Shown here piece after piece: positions 11,284 to 20,670 of a stretch of 64,000 nt of DNA (its first letter is position 1; every line of letters begins with the position of its first letter). The notes beneath the pieces were generated by a model that saw nothing but the letters and a program-made list of their open reading frames with translations, ran no database searches and was not told the DNA's origin. A program made the translations under genes and the position numbers. The stretch is from NCBI GenBank assembly GCA_027887005.1, contig JAPCJI010000001.1:186001-250000 (forward strand), written 5' to 3'. The DNA is from Nitrososphaerota archaeon (lineage in GTDB: Archaea; Thermoproteota; Nitrososphaeria; Nitrososphaerales; Gagatemarchaeaceae).

Positions 11284-14200
11284 TTGCATACGTTGGGCCC
11301 TCGCAGCGGGTCGAAACTAGTCGCTCTTATCGTGATTATGCTCCTTGCGGCCCCCTTCCTCGCGCTGATTCCGTCTAGGGCACAGGCGGCTGGCCCTCCG
11401 GGGACGGTGCCGGTCGTCCTGACGGTCTACCCCCGGGGAGCCCCCACGGCGACATTCAGTCTGAGTGGATGCGGCGTTTCGCCCGCGACAATACCTGGCG
11501 ATGGACTCGCCCACACCGTAGTGGCCGAATCAGGCTGTGGCGTGATCGTGGCCGCTCCGACTCCCGGGTCAGACATGCGGTTCGTCTTTCCGTCTGCGAG
11601 CCTGGGTGCAAGCAACAGCACCGTGATAACGGTAGGCTCCGCTTCTCTGATTTCTCTAACTTACTATTACCAAGTCGGGGAGTACGTCTCTTTCAATGTA
11701 ATCGGCGGAGGCTCGCCCAGTCCCGTTCCTAGCCTTCTGTACTCCTACGTCGGAACAAACCTCACGCAACCTTTGTCGACCACCCCCACCCACGACTGGT
11801 TAGATTGGATTGACCCGTCGACGGGTAAGTACCTGCACGTCTCGCCTGCGGCAATCTTCGCCCCCGGGTCGAGTTCCGAGAGGTGGGCAAATAATGGAAC
11901 CTTCGCCGTGAAGCAGACCGCTGGAGGAACCATCATCCCGTCCTACCACCACCAGTACTATCAGTTTCTCTCATATTCCGTCACCAACGGTCATAGCGCG
12001 ACCGCCCCCTTTGTCGACGGCTCCCAGTTTGGATACCCCTTCTCCTCCAAGCTGGGGACCCCGTCAATTCCGACCTGGTTCGACGCCATTGGCAACCTCA
12101 CTTTCAGCAGCACCACAGACAGCACAGGCGCAAAGCTGGTCCCCAACCCGGCGTGGGTTTCGGCTCTTCAGTCGCAGAACACCATCATAGCGTATTCTCC
12201 CGTGTCGGTCACGTCGACCACAACCACCAGCTCGTCGTCGAGCGTAAGCTCCAACACCACCACCCCCACCATCACTACCACGCCGGGATCCACGTCATCT
12301 TCGACTGGGGGCGTGAATCTCGTCTTGCTTGTCCTCCTTCTGGGGTTCACAATCCTAGTGGCAGCAGCTGTCTTCCTGTGGCGTAGAGGTATCATTCTTG
12401 CGGGCGACAAGCCGAAGGGTCCAGGCGGCGCGCCTGAGGAAGGGGGGGCCACGGGCACCGGGGGACCTGGAAGTGGTCCTGGAGCCGGTCCAGGAAGCGG
12501 TCCAGGAAGCGGCCCGGGGGGAGGTCCAGGAGGGATTCCGGTGGGTGGCGAGCCCGTCCCTCCTCCGGTCGTCCCCCACGGAGCACCTGAAGGGTGCGCT
12601 CTCTCGTCACATTGGCTCCATCACAGGTTGGAAATGGGCCTGCTTCCTGGAGGGAGCAAGGACGCTCCCAACAAGTTCACCACCCCCCCGGACGAACCAG
12701 TCCCACTGAGAGCTGGGGCGACCGACGTCCATCTGCTCATCCAGGAGTGTTCCTGCCCCGGAATAGCAGGAGACTTGAGCAGGAAGACGATCAGCATGGC
12801 GGCCAAGCTTCGGGTCGAGTGGGAGATCGTTGAGGGGGAGGGCGGATTCGTCGACCAGAGTCGGGGGACGCCCCGTCAGTCTGACAAGGGCGACGAAGTG
12901 CTCTTCCAACCCGGCCGGGTTGACCCGAAGTCAGGCTCGAAAGCAAAGACAGTCAAGGTCAGGGTCAAGGCTGTCCACGACGACACGACGAAGCCCCCAG
13001 ACCACGCCGAGGTGACTTCACTCATCACGATGGAGATATCGAGGAGTACCGCCCCCGGCGGCCCGGCCGCTGCAGCAGGCCAGGCGTCGAAGGACGAATA
13101 CCTGTACAACTACTGGGTAGAGGACGGCCCGCCTGTCAAAGGCCCGGACCCGCCGCCGGACATGACCGCAGACTGCGTACCGGGTCACGATTGGGCCCAG
13201 GCAGAGGAGATCCAGGGGCAGATCTCGTTGATGCCTCTGTCCTGCAACCCAGGCGACCTCGTCAGGCTTGGGGCGATGGGCACCGACGCGGACGAACTCA
13301 GGCTCGTGTGCACACCCTCAGGCAAGGTTTGCAAACTCCCCTCTCCGACCTCGGGCTCGGTCCTGAGCGACCCCCTCACATATTCTTGGAAGGCGGACAG
13401 GGGCGACTTTCCACTCAAAGAACTGTACGAGAAGCTGCACGGGAAACCTCCTGGGGCAGGCGGTTGGGAAGGGGGTCAGGTCGTCGTCTGGCGGGCCCCT
13501 GGGGAGGCCTGCGACGCGAAGATAACGCTCCAGATGAGGGATTCTGGCGCGGAGTTCCCCGACAAACCCAAGGAACTGCAAGCTGACGTCAGGGTCGGCA
13601 ACCCAAGCCCGAGCACGCCTGCTACGCCGCCTCCCCCAACCGTCATCCCGCCACAGACGTCCAAGGCACAAGTCGGGACCTGTTGTGGCCCAGATGTCAC
13701 CGATAACGTGCTGGGGGCCATGCTTAAGATGATGAACGACTTCTTTTCTTGGAGCAGGGAGAAGCAGTCCACAGAGTTGGGATACCTCACACGGATCCCT
13801 CTGGCTGGGGACGATGGCTCGAAGCCCAATTTCAACAACGCCTGGGACATAACCGAACTAGCCCCGTCTGAAGAGAGAGGGGACATTACAGTCTCCCGAA
13901 AGAACCCTGTCCCACACAGAGGACCCGCCACACCTGTGGCAGGAGGGTACAAGGCCACGCTGAGCCCCTACGTCGGCCGCTGCATGAATCCAACCGACCC
14001 TTGCTACCCATCGGTTGTGTTCCTCGGCAACTGTCATCATCCCCAAGTCGTGAACTACATAGAATGGGGCGTCTTGGCGCGACTTGATGAATGGATGAAG
14101 GTAATTGAACGTTTGGAGGACTTGAAAGCCGTAAACGCCCAATATTTCAAGAATCATCCCGAAGAGAAAGAAACAGCGTCACCGCAGGCCGCGACCCGGC

Positions 14201-14526
14201 AGTATCTGGCAACGACCCTAGGTGACTTCCACACCCTCAGGAGCGGACTGTTGGACGCTAATTATCAGGACCAGGTGGCGATGGTTGAGGTGGGGTGGCG
14301 GCTTGCAGACGATTATCTAGTGCGAAAGACGAACGGAAAGCTTCCGTACAAGCTGAAGGAGGTGAACAAGGCGGCCCTCGAGGGCATCTTGGAGTCATTG
14401 CAGAACAACTCAAGAGGGACGGCAGCCTGCAAGACAAATTGCGGTCGCTACCTCTCGTCCATGTCGTTTAGATACAATTTCGGCGATGAAGAATTGAGGC
14501 TCGGAATCCCTCTGGCAGAACTCTGA
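11284..14526 (+). CDS. Large secreted-stalk / cytoplasmic-domain membrane protein
   Basis: 1080 residues. It has a signal sequence (about 10-36), an outer domain to about 300, a Ser/Thr stalk, one membrane helix near 342-366, then a Gly/Pro-rich linker (about 372-420) made of repeated PGSGPG units. About 650 cytoplasmic residues follow, with several Cys pairs. The last 270 residues hold CGPDVTDNVLGAMLKM, AWDITEL and VNYIEWGVLARLDEW. From memory this resembles a C-terminal domain found in bacterial proteins linked to extracellular contractile injection systems; that match is tentative. Start TTG 11284 keeps the basic signal n-region. Function unknown; the 807-aa protein at 27916 has the same plan. 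Confidence 0.7.
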   Translation: MHTLGPRSGSKLVALIVIMLLAAPFLALIPSRAQAAGPPGTVPVVLTVYPRGAPTATFSLSGCGVSPATIPGDGLAHTVVAESGCGVIVAAPTPGSDMRFVFPSASLGASNSTVITVGSASLISLTYYYQVGEYVSFNVIGGGSPSPVPSLLYSYVGTNLTQPLSTTPTHDWLDWIDPSTGKYLHVSPAAIFAPGSSSERWANNGTFAVKQTAGGTIIPSYHHQYYQFLSYSVTNGHSATAPFVDGSQFGYPFSSKLGTPSIPTWFDAIGNLTFSSTTDSTGAKLVPNPAWVSALQSQNTIIAYSPVSVTSTTTTSSSSSVSSNTTTPTITTTPGSTSSSTGGVNLVLLVLLLGFTILVAAAVFLWRRGIILAGDKPKGPGGAPEEGGATGTGGPGSGPGAGPGSGPGSGPGGGPGGIPVGGEPVPPPVVPHGAPEGCALSSHWLHHRLEMGLLPGGSKDAPNKFTTPPDEPVPLRAGATDVHLLIQECSCPGIAGDLSRKTISMAAKLRVEWEIVEGEGGFVDQSRGTPRQSDKGDEVLFQPGRVDPKSGSKAKTVKVRVKAVHDDTTKPPDHAEVTSLITMEISRSTAPGGPAAAAGQASKDEYLYNYWVEDGPPVKGPDPPPDMTADCVPGHDWAQAEEIQGQISLMPLSCNPGDLVRLGAMGTDADELRLVCTPSGKVCKLPSPTSGSVLSDPLTYSWKADRGDFPLKELYEKLHGKPPGAGGWEGGQVVVWRAPGEACDAKITLQMRDSGAEFPDKPKELQADVRVGNPSPSTPATPPPPTVIPPQTSKAQVGTCCGPDVTDNVLGAMLKMMNDFFSWSREKQSTELGYLTRIPLAGDDGSKPNFNNAWDITELAPSEERGDITVSRKNPVPHRGPATPVAGGYKATLSPYVGRCMNPTDPCYPSVVFLGNCHHPQVVNYIEWGVLARLDEWMKVIERLEDLKAVNAQYFKNHPEEKETASPQAATRQYLATTLGDFHTLRSGLLDANYQDQVAMVEVGWRLADDYLVRKTNGKLPYKLKEVNKAALEGILESLQNNSRGTAACKTNCGRYLSSMSFRYNFGDEELRLGIPLAEL

Positions 14527-14614: not shown

Positions 14615-15439
14615 CTATCTAGGGAGGCCTGAAACACAGCTCGGGCAGACAGTCAGGAGGAGTCCATTAGAGCACTCGAAATTGGTGGCAGTCGTCGAGC
14701 AGACAGGGCAGAGTGTCCTGTTCACTTTCCACCCTGCATCCAACCCTCCCTTCTTGATCCAGTCGACCAGCGCCAGGACCCTTCCATCCGTAATCTGGTC
14801 AGGGTTCAAGTCTTGGATGTAGTTGACTGCCAGCTCGAACTTCTTGAAAACCCCGTCAGGTAGCTCTCCGTTCAGCGACATCTGGGCAAGGGCGCCTAGG
14901 AAAGCCCCCTTCTCTTCATCCTTCTTCGCCTTTGCTTCACTCCCCCCTATGTACGCGAATGTGATCAGCCCCACAATGGTGACGAGCCCCTGCGGGGACT
15001 GGGCGAACATGACAACGAGGCCCACCTTGGGGATCACGACTTCCGGAGTGCCAAGGATTCTGGCCGAGGGAACGAGCCCCGGGTCAGGCTGTTGGTTGTT
15101 GTCCCCCTTCGTTTCATAGTTGATCGTCCTATCGCTCTGAATGACCGTGCCTACTATCCTGTGGATGAGGACGGGCTTCAGGAGGGAATCGAGGGCCGAT
15201 ATCCCGGTCCCGCTCTGGACAAATACGATGACGGTGCCGTTGGGGATCTCCCCCTGGGGCGCCGAGTGGAAGACGACCAGGTCCCCGTTCTGCAGCGCGG
15301 GGTACATGCTGTTGCCATTGACTACCGTCATCGGATAGGTCAGGGTCCCCATGGAGATCGGAAGGAGTATCGCGGCGGCGAACAAAGCGATGAGAAGGCT
15401 GATTCCAAGCCTCTTCGGGAGCCCCTTGGGTAGCCTCAT
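14615..15439 (-). CDS. SipW-like type I signal peptidase (S26B) with C-terminal zinc ribbon
   Basis: Cuts signal peptides at the outer face of the membrane. Ser44 in NGNSMYPAL, His93 in LIHRIVG and Asp113 in TKGDNN mark the archaeal/ER-type Ser-His enzyme. Membrane helices lie at about 11-30 and 137-165. The last 35 residues add a four-Cys zinc site (CPVC and CPSC), an unusual extension. It overlaps the 550-aa secreted protein by four bases (ATGA), so it is coupled to that gene. Having its own peptidase beside two secreted proteins mirrors bacterial SipW-TasA loci, so these are likely its substrates. Confidence 0.8.
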   Translation of the reverse strand: MRLPKGLPKRLGISLLIALFAAAILLPISMGTLTYPMTVVNGNSMYPALQNGDLVVFHSAPQGEIPNGTVIVFVQSGTGISALDSLLKPVLIHRIVGTVIQSDRTINYETKGDNNQQPDPGLVPSARILGTPEVVIPKVGLVVMFAQSPQGLVTIVGLITFAYIGGSEAKAKKDEEKGAFLGALAQMSLNGELPDGVFKKFELAVNYIQDLNPDQITDGRVLALVDWIKKGGLDAGWKVNRTLCPVCSTTATNFECSNGLLLTVCPSCVSGLPR

Positions 15440-17088
15440 GTCAACACCTTCAAGGGCACCTGGAAGTTGGTGGGTTGGCCCACTCCCCAGTAAAGGGTAG
15501 CGGCGGAGGAAGAGGCTGTGACCACCACTGAAAGGTAATCGTTGGCGGGAACGCTCACAGTTGCTTCGGCGAAGGTCATCGTGTACTGTGCCTCAGCGGT
15601 CCCGAGCACAGAAGAGGGGACGTTGCTAGCCACCGTCGTGACCACGGTCCCGGTCGACCCTGTGATGTAGATCGAGACCGTGACCTTGTTAGAGGAAAGG
15701 CTGCCCAGAGAAACGGCTGGCAGGGCGCCGCCCGGTGGAGAGGCCCTTGCCCTCCCCCAGTTGAAGTAAAGCCCGTCCGGGTTGCCCGCAACGCTCGCGC
15801 CTACCGAGCACCAGTACAGTTGCGCCGAACCGGTGATCGGGTGCTGAGGGGTGGAGGCAGCATAGGCAGAGTAGAAACTAGTCGAAACGATCCCTGAAAA
15901 GGAAGTCGAACCCGTTCCAGGGTAGGCAAGTCCGGCATAGTACCAGGTGAGAGCCGCATCCACGCCCCCTCCTGCTACCTTGGTAGCCGCCCCGGCCGCA
16001 ACGTAGACATAACCATACAGCGTCCCGGCGTTCCCCACGACCTCCGATTCGGCGTTTATCGTCCCTGATCCGGCTGTGGTGCTATCACAAAACCCGGCCA
16101 GTCCTTGAAGGTTGCCCGCGTCCCCAGTCTGAATTTCTGAATACGACTCCGCTATCTCCCCATAAGTGGGATTGGCAGCCGGCAGCGGAGTGGTGAGGAT
16201 CATGTTCACCCTGTTGGACGAGCCGTATCCTTTCAGACTGAGGACGTTGATCGACGAGCCGCCAGCTATTGGATTGGCTACTCCTGTGGTCTTTGCCAAT
16301 GTGTTAGAGGCTCCATTGTTGAAGCTTGCCACCGCCGTGTTCCCGTTGAAGTAGAGGTCGAACACGTTCGCCCCGTTGTCGTAAGCGGCGTAGGTGGTCG
16401 ACAGATGGGGAGATTCTCCCCGATATGCCCCATCGAACTCTGTCGATGTGGGTAAGAACACCATGTAGATCGTGAGCGAGCCGCCGCTCCCGGCAAGGGA
16501 TGAGGTCAGCTTCACCCAGAAGGTCGCCGTGGTCGACGCGGTTGAGCAGGGTCCGTAGGGGGCGGCGCTCCCGCATCCTTCGAGCCATGAATACAGTTTC
16601 GTCGAGCAGAGGGTGTTCAGGCAAAACCCGATGTTTCCCAGGTCAGAGGTTTCATACGCTGAGTACAGAGATGGGTTCGGCTGGACAATGACTTGCAAGG
16701 TATTGGGGGTGGCAGAGCCTTGGTTGTTGGTCAGGGTGATTGGGACGTAGCTGTATGCAGCTGCCGCAGCCCAGAAGTCGAAGACCCAGTTGCCCGCGCT
16801 GACTGTGGTCGCGCTGACGAACTGGGGTGACCATAGGTACCCCGAGGTCGCTTGGGGTATCGAGTACGAGCCCGACGTGCCAGAAGGAGTCTGGGCAGTG
16901 TTTGTGCTGGGGGTCGAGCTCCCCGGGCCGGATGCGGTCTCGAAATACACGTTTGTCAGGGTCCCGTACTTGGTCTGAAGGTTCGTAGTAGAGACCGTCA
17001 CGGACGTGGCGAAGGACTGGACAGCCAGGACTGCTATGATGAGCAGGGCGATAGTGAGGAGCCTCAAGGTCCGGGCGACCTCCAGCAA
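15436..17088 (-). CDS. Secreted DUF2341-like surface protein
   Basis: 550 residues. A basic start and one hydrophobic signal (about 9-27) end in QSFATSV. Residues about 165-260 match the DUF2341 pattern: a SWLEGC stretch, ATFWVKL, LTIYMVFLP, FDGAYRGESPHLS and YDNGANVFDLYFN, a concanavalin-like fold often found in archaeal surface proteins. The rest is Ser/Gly/Thr-rich beta sequence. It lies 64 bases after the 170-aa secreted protein and is coupled to the peptidase gene. It is probably an extracellular or matrix component; ligand unknown. Confidence 0.7.
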   Translation of the reverse strand: MLEVARTLRLLTIALLIIAVLAVQSFATSVTVSTTNLQTKYGTLTNVYFETASGPGSSTPSTNTAQTPSGTSGSYSIPQATSGYLWSPQFVSATTVSAGNWVFDFWAAAAAYSYVPITLTNNQGSATPNTLQVIVQPNPSLYSAYETSDLGNIGFCLNTLCSTKLYSWLEGCGSAAPYGPCSTASTTATFWVKLTSSLAGSGGSLTIYMVFLPTSTEFDGAYRGESPHLSTTYAAYDNGANVFDLYFNGNTAVASFNNGASNTLAKTTGVANPIAGGSSINVLSLKGYGSSNRVNMILTTPLPAANPTYGEIAESYSEIQTGDAGNLQGLAGFCDSTTAGSGTINAESEVVGNAGTLYGYVYVAAGAATKVAGGGVDAALTWYYAGLAYPGTGSTSFSGIVSTSFYSAYAASTPQHPITGSAQLYWCSVGASVAGNPDGLYFNWGRARASPPGGALPAVSLGSLSSNKVTVSIYITGSTGTVVTTVASNVPSSVLGTAEAQYTMTFAEATVSVPANDYLSVVVTASSSAATLYWGVGQPTNFQVPLKVLT

Positions 17089-17152
17089 CGAATGCTTCGA
17101 GTGAAAGAAGGGGTCACTGCGAGCCTAGGCTCGCTTCCGTCCCCCATTGGGT

Positions 17153-17665
17153 CTACGCCACCGTGACTACGATACCGGCCGGCGCGGTGAACGATGCTCC
17201 AGCAGTATCCAGAAGGAACGTCATAGTCTGGCCTGCAGTGATGGATGCAAGCGTTGTAACGGTCAGGGCGAATCCGAGCGTGGAATAGCCAGCACCGGTG
17301 TTCCAAGTGACGGTAAGGGTGTATGTGGTGCTTGGACTGGCAGCGGCATTGAGGGTAAGGGTGACAGAATAGTACCAGTGCCCGGCCGTCAGAGCCGTCT
17401 GGCAAGTACCGCCGTTCGCCCATGTGCATGGCAGAGTCGAAGCAGCTCCTGTCGCCTGGACCACGGAGAACCCGTTGCTCGCCGCCGTGAAGCCACCTAC
17501 GACGTTGTAGTAGACACCGTTCACGCCCTGGTAGGTGTTTGTGGTCACATTCACGCTAGCAGCGTAGGATACCCCTGAGAAGACGACGATGGCCAGGAGC
17601 GGCAGGAGGTACCTCATTCGCAGCCTCCGCCTTGATGCCGGCTTTCTCGTGTACGTTTCCACCAT
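17153..17665 (-). CDS. Small secreted beta-sandwich protein (TasA/pilin-like candidate)
   Basis: 170 residues with a basic n-region, a hydrophobic core LLPLLAIVVFSGVSYA and a likely cut before ASVNV. The mature part is about 135 residues of beta-forming, Thr/Ser/Ala-rich sequence with one Cys pair (PCTWANGGTC). ATG 17617 is a second possible start. It is the first gene of a three-gene operon with the 550-aa protein and a SipW-like peptidase. By position it resembles TasA-like fibre subunits and archaeal donor-strand pili, but this rests on context and composition, not on a recognised motif. Confidence 0.65.
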   Translation of the reverse strand: MVETYTRKPASRRRLRMRYLLPLLAIVVFSGVSYAASVNVTTNTYQGVNGVYYNVVGGFTAASNGFSVVQATGAASTLPCTWANGGTCQTALTAGHWYYSVTLTLNAAASPSTTYTLTVTWNTGAGYSTLGFALTVTTLASITAGQTMTFLLDTAGASFTAPAGIVVTVA

Positions 17666-17706
17666 CTTACTTCCTAGCCGAAAAGGGGCCCTCTCCCTTA
17701 TTATTG

Positions 17707-17731
17707 TATTATGGAGTAGTACTCTATAATA
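17707..17731. promoter_or_regulatory. Near-perfect 25-bp palindrome, likely RHH operator
   Basis: Arms TATTATGGAGTA and TACTCTATAATA around a central G. They pair except for one offset pair on each side, a G facing a T. It sits just upstream of the minus-strand TATA-like AATAATA and between divergent genes, so the RHH protein at 17831 probably binds here. Confidence 0.65.
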
Positions 17732-17738
17732 TGGAATG

Positions 17739-17757
17739 ACAACCTATGTTATGTTGT
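17739..17757. promoter_or_regulatory. Second inverted repeat in the same intergenic region
   Basis: ACAACCTA-TGT-TATGTTGT; the arms pair with one mismatch. It lies eight bases from the first palindrome and may be a second operator half or a separate site. Confidence 0.45.
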
Positions 17758-17803
17758 AAGATGGTTTCGAGAATTTGCACAGGAGTACTTGCGATTGTTT
17801 AGG

Positions 17804-17809
17804 TTATAT
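17804..17809 (+). promoter_or_regulatory. TATA box of the RHH regulator
   Basis: TTATAT is centred 25 bases before ATG 17831, so the transcript is leaderless. Confidence 0.55.
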
Positions 17810-17830
17810 CTTAGTGTTCCTTGGTGAAAC

Positions 17831-18400
17831 ATGAAATTGAGCAAGCAAAAAGAGACGCATCTGAGCCACCAAAAAGAGACACATGTGATCCGCACCGTCA
17901 GAATTCCAGCGTCGATGGACAAGGCGCTGCGGAAGATCGCCTTCGATGGAAACACGAGTGTCAACGCACTCGTCGAAGCCTCTTTGACGAAGTTCATCGA
18001 GTTTGACCAATATGCAGAGGAACTCGAATACGCCACTGTACGGAAGGCCTTCCTCATCAAGGGCTTGGAGTACTTTGATGAAGGTGAAATCCGTGATTTC
18101 GGGAAGTGGGCCGCGATGGAGTCAACTTCAGAACTCCTCCAGTTCTTTGGCGTGGGCTCCAATCTTGATTCCATCTTCCATATCTTCGAGACGGTCATTT
18201 CGAAGTACGGGAGACTCTTCACTTTCCATCACGAGTCTGATGGCAAGACACACAGAATCTTGCTCAATCACAGATTGGGAAAGAATTGGTCCATATTCTT
18301 CGATGCGAACCTGAAAACCCTCTTTGCAAGGTTAGGAATTGACCTGCAGACTGAAGTGAGCACGAACTTCGTTAGGGCGCACTTCGTCGAGAAACCATGA
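17831..18400 (+). CDS. Ribbon-helix-helix regulator with large C-terminal sensor domain
   Basis: 189 residues. Residues about 18-58 form an RHH DNA-binding unit (HVIRTVRIPASMDKALRKIA, then NTSVNALVEASLTKFIEF). Residues 60-189 form a mixed alpha/beta domain of unknown ligand. An odd short duplication, KQKETHLSHQKETH, opens the protein. The gene is divergent from the secreted-protein/SipW operon, with two palindromes between them. It is therefore probably an autoregulated switch for that operon. Confidence 0.75.
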   Translation: MKLSKQKETHLSHQKETHVIRTVRIPASMDKALRKIAFDGNTSVNALVEASLTKFIEFDQYAEELEYATVRKAFLIKGLEYFDEGEIRDFGKWAAMESTSELLQFFGVGSNLDSIFHIFETVISKYGRLFTFHHESDGKTHRILLNHRLGKNWSIFFDANLKTLFARLGIDLQTEVSTNFVRAHFVEKP

Positions 18401-18696
18401 GAATCGCCCCAACTAATCTACCCAACAGCGACTACAAGTAATCTGTGGATGTTTGGCGGAGGAGTGAATCGATCCCTCCGGACCCGCAGCTCCCGTCTGT
18501 CGGGGCGCGAACCTAAACTGCAGAGTCCCGGCCAGGGCGCCTCTCAATATTCAAGGGCGCTCTATCATTCGGGAACCCTGCGGCATGTATCGTTCATGAC
18601 CGGCCGCCTCCCTCTCGCTGCTGGCCGGTGCAGTGCCCGAAACTCGAATCCAGCCCGCCGATAATGTGCCTTTCTGTCATCTGGGAGGTGCAAAGG
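18401..18696. other. Intergenic region before cyclase paralog 2
   Basis: The open frame continues upstream of the chosen cyclase start but does not look coding. The only structure seen is the family B repeat at 18502-18562. Confidence 0.5.
18502..18562. repeat. Family B dispersed repeat with extra AATATT unit
   Basis: GTCCCGGCCAGGGCGCC followed by TCTCAATATTCAAGGGCGCTC, the same two-unit form as at 5500-5592 in opposite order. Confidence 0.65.
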
Positions 18697-18704
18697 GTTT
18701 ATCC
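18697..18704 (+). promoter_or_regulatory. TATA box of cyclase paralog 2
   Basis: GTTTATCC, about 32 bases before TTG 18733. Confidence 0.6.
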
Positions 18705-18732
18705 AACGCCCCCCTCGGAGACCCTCAGAACC

Positions 18733-20670
18733 TTGATTCAGGAAGGGCGCAGGCTTGGGGCCATCATGTTCACAGACATGGTTGGGTATACCGCACTTTC
18801 CCAGGCCAACGAGACGCTCGCTCTCAAGCTCTTAGAAAGTCACAGGAGTCTTATCAGACCTCTTTTTGTAAAGCACAACGGGAGGGAGATAAAGACAATA
18901 GGGGACGCCTTCCTGGTCGAGTTCGAGAGTGCGCTTCAGGCGACCGAATGCGCAGTCGAACTGCAGCAGGCCCTCCACCAACAGGAGGAACACTCCCCCG
19001 AAAGGGTCCTCGTCAGGGTCGGAATCCACGTAGGCGACGTTGTCCATCGTGAAGGGGACGTGTACGGGGACGCGGTGAACATCGCGTCGAGAATCTACCC
19101 TCTGGCATCAGGCGGGGAGATATGCATCAGTGCCCAGGTCTTCGACCAGGTAAGGAACAAGGTTCCTTTCCGGTTCGTGAAGCTGGAGCCGAAGGAGCTT
19201 AAGAACGTCACATTTCCCATCGACGTGTACAAGCTCGAACTCCCCTGGGAGAAGGGCCAGAGGGAGAAGGGGAACGAGCCCCTCCCTCCCGACAGGATAG
19301 CCGTCCTCCCCTTCGTGAACATAAGCCCTGACCCCAACGACGAGTACTTTGCCGACGGCCTCACGGAAGAGCTGATCACGAGCCTGTCTCTGGTGAAGGG
19401 TTTGAAGGTGATCGCCCGCACCTCGGTAATGAACTACAAGAAGAAGGAGATGAACGTCTCACAGATAGGGAGAGAGCTCGGCGTGGGGACTGTGGTGGAG
19501 GGGAGCGTCAGGAAGGCGGGGAACAGGATCAGGGTGACTGTGCAGGTGATAGAGGTGGACACCGAGGAGCACCTATGGGCCTCCAAGTACGACGCCAGCC
19601 TCGACGATGTCTTCGCGGTCCAAAGCGACATCGCAGACAAGGTGGCACAGTCTCTCCCGGGGGCCCTCAAGGCCAGGCATACCGAAGCCCCCGAGAAGGA
19701 GACCCAGGACACGACCGCCTACATGGACTTCCTTCAGGGGAGGGACTTGATGTACGCGAAGGAGGAGGGTCCGCTGCGCCAGTCGTTGCAATTCTTCCAG
19801 CAGGCCATGGACAGGGACCCGCACTTCGCGAGGGCCCACGTCGGGATGGCCCAGGCGTACCTCACTCTCGGGAGCGGCGGATTCATCTCCTGGGCGGAGT
19901 CGATCGAGACTGCGAAGTCTTTCTTGAGGCGAGCCCTAATCATCAACGAGAGCCTCGCCGAGGCCCATTCGCTTCTTTCTCGTGCGGCGTTCATGGGTGA
20001 CGAGCCGTATTCAGTCATGGAGTCCGAGGCGCGCAGGGCGATTGAGCTCAACCCTAACTTGGCCGGCGCCTACGAAGACCTTGGGGCGGTGAAGGCAATC
20101 CAGTCGTCCCCTGAGGAGTGGGTCCACCTACTCGAGACTGCGTACCAGCTCGACCCCCTTTCTTCTCAGGTGATCGAGAGGCTGAGCGCAGCCTACATGT
20201 ACACCGGACGAGAGGCGGAGGCCCTCAACCATCTGCGGAGGACGCTCCACCTGAACCCGATGAACACTCACCGATGGATGAGTCTTTACCATACCTACAA
20301 AGGGAACCTGGACGACGCCGAAAGGGAGCTCGCCCAGCTGGAGTCCCTTGCCCCGACCTGGGAGTTCACGATGCTGACCAAGGGGTACCTGGCGGCTCTC
20401 AGGGGGAACAGAAATGTGGCTGAGGAGATGATTGCAGCCCTTGACCAGAGCCACAAGAGCGGATGGGCACGTTCGTCCCTGGCCGGCTTCATCCGTTACG
20501 CCCTCGGGGACATTGACGAATTCTTCCGGTACATGCACAACGCCGCCGAGGACCACACGCTGCGGGCCACCGACCTGATGTACTCCCCCCTCTTCGCCAA
20601 GGCAAGGGCCGACCCACGCATGAAAACCGTTCTCGCCGTATCAGGAATAGATCTCCCCTCCAATGCGTGA
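18733..20670 (+). CDS. Class III adenylate cyclase-TolB-TPR protein (paralog 2)
   Basis: 645 residues from TTG 18733, which aligns with paralogs 1 and 3 (QEGRRLGAIMFTDMVGYT). Cyclase residues are intact: Asp15, IKTIGDAF with Lys and Asp, and GDVYGDAVNIASR with Asp, Asn and Arg. The TolB-like part has IAVLPFVNISPDPNDEYFAD; TPR helices follow. It is more diverged than paralogs 1 and 3 in the loop after the cyclase core (LHQQEEHSPERV). The C-terminal TPR part has the same ENHTF/EDHTL-type segment as paralog 1. It is soluble with no DNA-binding domain. An upstream extension to 18628 is open but unsupported. Confidence 0.85.
   Translation: MIQEGRRLGAIMFTDMVGYTALSQANETLALKLLESHRSLIRPLFVKHNGREIKTIGDAFLVEFESALQATECAVELQQALHQQEEHSPERVLVRVGIHVGDVVHREGDVYGDAVNIASRIYPLASGGEICISAQVFDQVRNKVPFRFVKLEPKELKNVTFPIDVYKLELPWEKGQREKGNEPLPPDRIAVLPFVNISPDPNDEYFADGLTEELITSLSLVKGLKVIARTSVMNYKKKEMNVSQIGRELGVGTVVEGSVRKAGNRIRVTVQVIEVDTEEHLWASKYDASLDDVFAVQSDIADKVAQSLPGALKARHTEAPEKETQDTTAYMDFLQGRDLMYAKEEGPLRQSLQFFQQAMDRDPHFARAHVGMAQAYLTLGSGGFISWAESIETAKSFLRRALIINESLAEAHSLLSRAAFMGDEPYSVMESEARRAIELNPNLAGAYEDLGAVKAIQSSPEEWVHLLETAYQLDPLSSQVIERLSAAYMYTGREAEALNHLRRTLHLNPMNTHRWMSLYHTYKGNLDDAERELAQLESLAPTWEFTMLTKGYLAALRGNRNVAEEMIAALDQSHKSGWARSSLAGFIRYALGDIDEFFRYMHNAAEDHTLRATDLMYSPLFAKARADPRMKTVLAVSGIDLPSNA

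Follow-up and report, generated by a model that had tools for sequence, protein, structure and literature searches.

What does an archaeon make with two secreted proteins and a signal peptidase encoded beside them? The question is raised by a locus in the window, by which we mean the whole 64,000-nucleotide stretch analyzed here (positions 186,001 to 250,000 of contig JAPCJI010000001.1, assembly GCA_027887005.1). The host genome is archaeal (1.6 Mb, 26 contigs) and of the Gagatemarchaeaceae type within the Nitrososphaerales; its placement in that order comes from named relatives of the peptidase, with Candidatus Gagatemarchaeum stordalenia (soil group I.1c) as one genome of the same family, and the nearest comparable locus lies in the same genus, in the metagenome-assembled genome SubAcS15-57. 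Three minus-strand genes point in the same direction: SMALL (17153 to 17665; 170 aa), a secreted beta-sandwich protein and candidate major fiber subunit; MID (15436 to 17067, probably initiated from a TTG at 17067; the longest open reading frame begins at 17088), a second secreted protein and candidate tip, anchor or adhesin; and SPase (14615 to 15439; 274 aa), an S26B (SEC11-like) signal peptidase with a C-terminal extension. An earlier note on this DNA had read them as an operon whose last two genes overlap by ATGA, and the genes and the overlap (15439 to 15436) were both verified. The answer that we favor, as moderately probable, is that these genes form a self-contained, patchily distributed unit for an extracellular, presumably adhesive fiber polymerized by donor strands, with MID joining the polymer.

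The unit is a cassette of three genes, SMALL-MID-SPase, and not of four. It was found complete at eight loci of one archaeal phylum: in the window, in four other Nitrososphaerales (L018, L019, L021 and L022), in a Marsarchaeota G2 genome (L072; all three genes, identically ordered, from a scan of genome contigs with the peptidase alignment) and in two further families (L146 and L147, from a phylum-wide profile search). At two more loci (L017 and L020) SMALL and MID are present and the contig ends after MID. The earlier note had pictured a four-gene order including the divergent ribbon-helix-helix (RHH)-type gene; the three-gene core was kept in relatives, and the RHH-type gene proved to be local. 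The pairing of the three genes is well supported. When SMALL was searched against 101 related genomes, 12 gave a match, six of them strong (the window's own genome included), and in other Nitrososphaerales genomes its homologues (∼39 to 75% identical) were the first gene of the cassette. Weak matches in eight genomes (G016, G023, G035, G042, G046, G076, G078 and G106) were excluded from the cassette count. The cassette is rare and patchy in distribution: SMALL matched in 8 of 400 genomes of the order, two of these weakly, and in a 300-genome sample of the class the window's own genome gave the sole match. One genome (G084) carries two cassettes that belong to different subtypes, each subtype occurring in families f1 and f9. 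L017 comes from another family, yet its SMALL protein shows the same degree of similarity (∼75%) as the one in the congener L018. This suggests horizontal transfer, a reading limited by the poor resolution of the deep branches of the trees. A viral or plasmid origin was rejected: there were no relatives in viral contigs and no full-length plasmid match, and a viral fold search was uninformative. A scan of the window for RNA elements and tRNAs returned none. Separately, tandem SMALL-like genes stand beside a large hydrophobic gene (∼435 to 500 aa) at three loci of family f79 (L148:7210-8795, L149:3365-4947 and L150:3922-5170); a peptidase gene was absent from the stretches fetched around them.

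The evidence that ties SMALL to MID lies at their N termini. The signal peptide and mature N-terminal tail of SMALL (17486 to 17611, minus strand) are homologous to the N terminus of MID and make a candidate processing or assembly module: over the signal peptide and the first ∼20 mature residues, hhalign gave E = 5.1e-10 (probability 97), whereas relatedness of the heads was not detectable (probability 8). An initial profile match that had suggested homology of the whole proteins (probability 94) derived from signal peptide and tail alone, and whole-protein homology was rejected. The tail has the consensus SVxVTxxTYQxxxGxY, with cleavage predicted after SYA or YAA and before SVxV. In a donor-strand fiber a minor subunit is expected to carry the same tail as the major one; MID does so with respect to SMALL, in a match that includes the signal peptide. 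In the eight cassette genomes a profile of the module recovered the cassette proteins at E ≤ 2.9e-4 (all but one at ≤1.2e-10) and no non-cassette protein below 0.039; in two congeners that lack the cassette the best score was 0.014, with nothing convincing. Confinement of the tail module to cassette proteins is well supported in the genomes tested.

SMALL is laid out as a signal peptide (residues ∼17 to 35), the conserved tail (∼36 to 55) and a sandwich head (56 to 170); translation may alternatively begin at an internal ATG (17617), which follows GGAGG. The AlphaFold model of SMALL (predicted local distance difference test [pLDDT] score 69.5 overall) has a beta sandwich over ∼56 to 170, in line with the small secreted beta protein of the earlier note. 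Ten-residue blocks from ∼60 onward scored 71 to 93, most of them at least 75. Residues 29 to 55 fell below 50 (tail ∼30) despite their strong conservation, and the tail was left unplaced beside the sandwich, as donor-strand assembly would lead one to expect. The same split appeared in the model of the MID core, where the core was well modelled and the conserved tail was not placed. TasA and TapA, in which the tail is the donor strand, have a comparable published pattern.

MID consists of a jelly-roll core with exchangeable domains in one core loop. Its shortest forms (∼190 to 220 aa) comprise a signal peptide, the tail and a single jelly-roll core, and a model of this core has its fold matches in the jelly-roll domain of PaL/CocE-type hydrolases (E = 5e-6) and in carbohydrate-binding modules (E ∼5e-4). 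Five loci (L017, L019, L072, L146 and L147) encode MID without an inserted domain. In the window and in L018 a DUF2341-containing domain splits the core between WVFDFWA and VSIYITGSTG; in the window it occupies approximately 15691 to 16755 (minus strand), and the flanking core halves, placed by fragment alignment, align with the MID of L068, which is 194 aa long and uninterrupted. L021 and L022 carry a different beta-type domain at the same core site, plus another earlier in the protein. The DUF2341 label of the earlier note holds by homology, since PF10102 scores above its cut-off in the L018 orthologue (E = 2.6e-7, 31.4 bits versus 23.4), but a profile search did not detect PF10102 in the MID of the window itself.

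SPase is, from its sequence, an S26B enzyme of the SEC11 type, as had been supposed. It exceeds the cut-off of the archaeal signal peptidase I model TIGR02228 (E = 2.5e-21, 76.2 bits versus 51.85), its nearest solved structures are SEC11A/C, and Ser44 and His93 (SMxP and IH motifs) are invariant in six aligned cassette peptidases. Hydropathy (a positively charged N terminus, a membrane segment at ∼11 to 29 and a second hydrophobic stretch ending at ∼167) suggests a topology with the catalytic part outside and the last ∼105 residues in the cytoplasm. This predicted cytoplasmic domain (14627 to 14941, minus strand) has helical-looking sequence followed by a zinc ribbon of two CxxC pairs (CxxC…CPxC), degenerate in L072, L146 and L147. 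The zinc ribbon had been called an unusual addition; a tail-domain profile run over 300 genomes of the phylum matched cassette peptidases only. So exclusive a cytoplasmic domain poses a new question, that of the control of signal-peptide processing. An orphan copy of the domain without the catalytic part occurs in another genome (L152:5368-5790, in G031) and may be the remnant of a cassette or a gene in its own right.

We infer the following mechanism. SMALL and MID would be exported by Sec, and the S26B peptidase of the cassette would cut the signal peptide type that they have in common. The freed N-terminal tail of SMALL would then act as a donor strand that fills out the sandwich of the following subunit, and SMALL would polymerize in this way. 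Through the same tail MID would enter the same polymer as a tip, anchor or adhesin, presenting a jelly-roll head unrelated to that of SMALL with lectin-like domains inserted in its loop, and the cytoplasmic helical and zinc-ribbon tail may couple SPase to a cytosolic partner or signal. Several points weigh against this interpretation. The AlphaFold models are of single chains, and their input alignments were shallow (7 and 12 rows, the SMALL model resting on seven sequences). The low confidence of the tail could also denote a flexible linker, and a common tail could stem from recognition by the peptidase alone. SMALL had no match among PDB sequences at E ≤ 10, its best Foldseek matches in PDB were weak, Ig-like and of low template-modelling (TM) score, and no TasA or thread chain was among its 50 best fold matches. 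The structural comparison proposed in the earlier note for 17153 to 17665 thus yielded the expected beta sandwich, but no match to TasA, camelysin or AbpA by sequence or profile.

A further proposal, compatible with a fiber, is that the operon and the divergent RHH-type gene (17831 to 18400, plus strand; 189 aa, outside the conserved cassette) make up a single self-regulated switch unit; this is possible, although we lean against it. The layout is divergent around one palindrome of better than chance quality: a near-perfect 25-bp repeat at 17707 to 17731 (TATTATGGAGTAGTACTCTATAATA), lying 41 nt ahead of the start of SMALL, had no equal when the 165-bp intergenic region was put through 400 dinucleotide shuffles. 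The second palindrome of the earlier note (17739 to 17757) was reached in 174 of 400 shuffles and is attributable to chance. An operator at 17707 to 17731 is plausible because L018 retains a related inverted repeat, 29 nt upstream of its SMALL, together with the string TACTA-G/C-TCCATAATAC. The palindrome could, however, equally control the RHH-type gene alone, and at two loci (L017 and L020) the place directly upstream of SMALL is taken by winged-helix genes (45% identical over 69 aa). No RHH relative was found on any other Nitrososphaerales cassette contig in the genomes searched; the assignment of the gene to the system was not borne out, and the RHH switch lies outside the conserved unit. 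What the eight loci do conserve is an operon logic of major subunit, second secreted protein with the same type of N-terminal signal and tail, and dedicated S26B peptidase. The regulator itself matches RHH_1 weakly and below the cut-off (E = 0.051, 14 bits versus 20.5), but it belongs to a real and large family, with relatives in 42 of 101 related genomes as scattered paralogues (up to nine copies per genome). Members are ∼190 aa long with a conserved C-terminal domain, the family is expanded across the Nitrososphaerales, and at five loci (L121, L126, L132, L134 and L136) the gene stands divergently beside a transcription factor B-like gene. A 24-nt tandem duplication at 17838 to 17885 encodes LSKQKETH/LSHQKETH at the N terminus of the protein in the window. 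Farther out lie a large secreted-looking protein (11284 to 14526; 1,080 aa) with a Gly/Pro-rich linker and no family match, and a class III nucleotide cyclase with TPR repeats (18628 to 20670), whose family numbers 11 copies here and 15 in a congener (G009), a striking expansion for archaea.

Competing directly with polymerization is the idea that the secreted, lectin-like proteins of the cassette do not polymerize but form a matrix or a coat on the surface, with the tail serving solely as a peptidase recognition sequence. The shared region does begin in the signal peptide and cross the cleavage site, and the resemblance of MID heads to carbohydrate-binding modules, with a DUF2341 domain, would suit such a coat. 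Yet signal peptidases usually read less than ∼20 residues past the cleavage site, and conservation here reaches ∼20 residues beyond it; moreover, the tandem SMALL genes of L021 and the tandem SMALL-like genes of L148 and L150 fit structural subunits. We regard a coat of this kind as unlikely, at perhaps less than half the credence given to the donor-strand fiber. The original proposal, that the locus represents a genuine TasA/camelysin/AbpA branch in archaea whose products a SipW orthologue processes, is very improbable: the operon logic and N-terminal tail do resemble TasA/TapA at the level of the system, and SPase does score against the SipW model NF046067 (E = 1.1e-14), but its 54.5 bits fall far below the cut-off of 190 and below the score for the general archaeal model, TasA and thread chains were missing from the sequence matches and from the 50 best fold matches, and nine SMALL members searched against Pfam and NCBIfam at E ≤ 10 returned uninformative families, with camelysin and SipW-cognate models absent.

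Little is known of attachment and matrix formation in the uncultivated soil group I.1c Thaumarchaeota, and adhesion, biofilm and pili go unmentioned in a genomics paper on the Gagatemarchaeaceae (PMC10640624). Compact as it is, and equipped with a peptidase of its own, the cassette offers a candidate for either process that can be tested directly. If the donor-strand fiber is real, a design of peptidase plus tailed subunits originated in archaea, or spread among them, separately from the TasA family.

Among known systems, several archaeal fibers combine a tail with a head, and in the portions of the literature consulted none has a dedicated peptidase of this kind (PMC9715654, PMC9674648, PMC12326000). 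The thread of Sulfolobus acidocaldarius (Saci_0406) is likewise archaeal and processed by signal peptidase I, with an N-terminal tail strand and a beta head; unlike the cassette it shows no sequence match, and the sections of that report used here describe no dedicated peptidase for the thread cluster (PMC9715654). The AbpA bundling pili of Pyrobaculum calidifontis, taken here from their description in PMC9674648, are archaeal fibers structurally related to TasA and complemented by donor strands; no AbpA-like match was found for the cassette. The CanA cannulae of Pyrodictium are also built from a secreted archaeal beta protein, whose N-terminal segment contacts neighboring protomers and which fails to polymerize when truncated at the N terminus (PMC12326000); CanA forms a hollow fiber driven by divalent ions, and no sequence link to the cassette was found. 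Archaeal signal peptidase I (TIGR02228) and SEC11 have the catalytic domain in common with SPase, whereas the ordinary archaeal copies lack its C-terminal domain. The closest parallel is tapA-sipW-tasA of Bacillus subtilis, in which TasA polymerizes via an N-terminal donor strand that the N terminus of TapA resembles; there too a dedicated signal peptidase is encoded with its two substrates, and major and minor secreted proteins have related N-terminal tails and a beta-sandwich head (PMC9674648). The cassette differs in its gene order, in having no TasA/camelysin or SipW-cognate match, in a MID head that is a jelly roll with inserts, like a carbohydrate-binding module, and in the helical and zinc-ribbon tail of SPase. 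It probably follows the logic of tapA-sipW-tasA yet is a separate family, and we tentatively suggest, while thinking the full claim doubtful, that it may represent a new class of archaeal donor-strand fiber evolved independently of TasA: a transferable cassette that would set a shared tail on unrelated heads, display exchangeable lectin-like domains from a single loop of the core and employ a dedicated peptidase, with a cytoplasmic zinc-ribbon tail to sense or recruit a partner in the cytosol.

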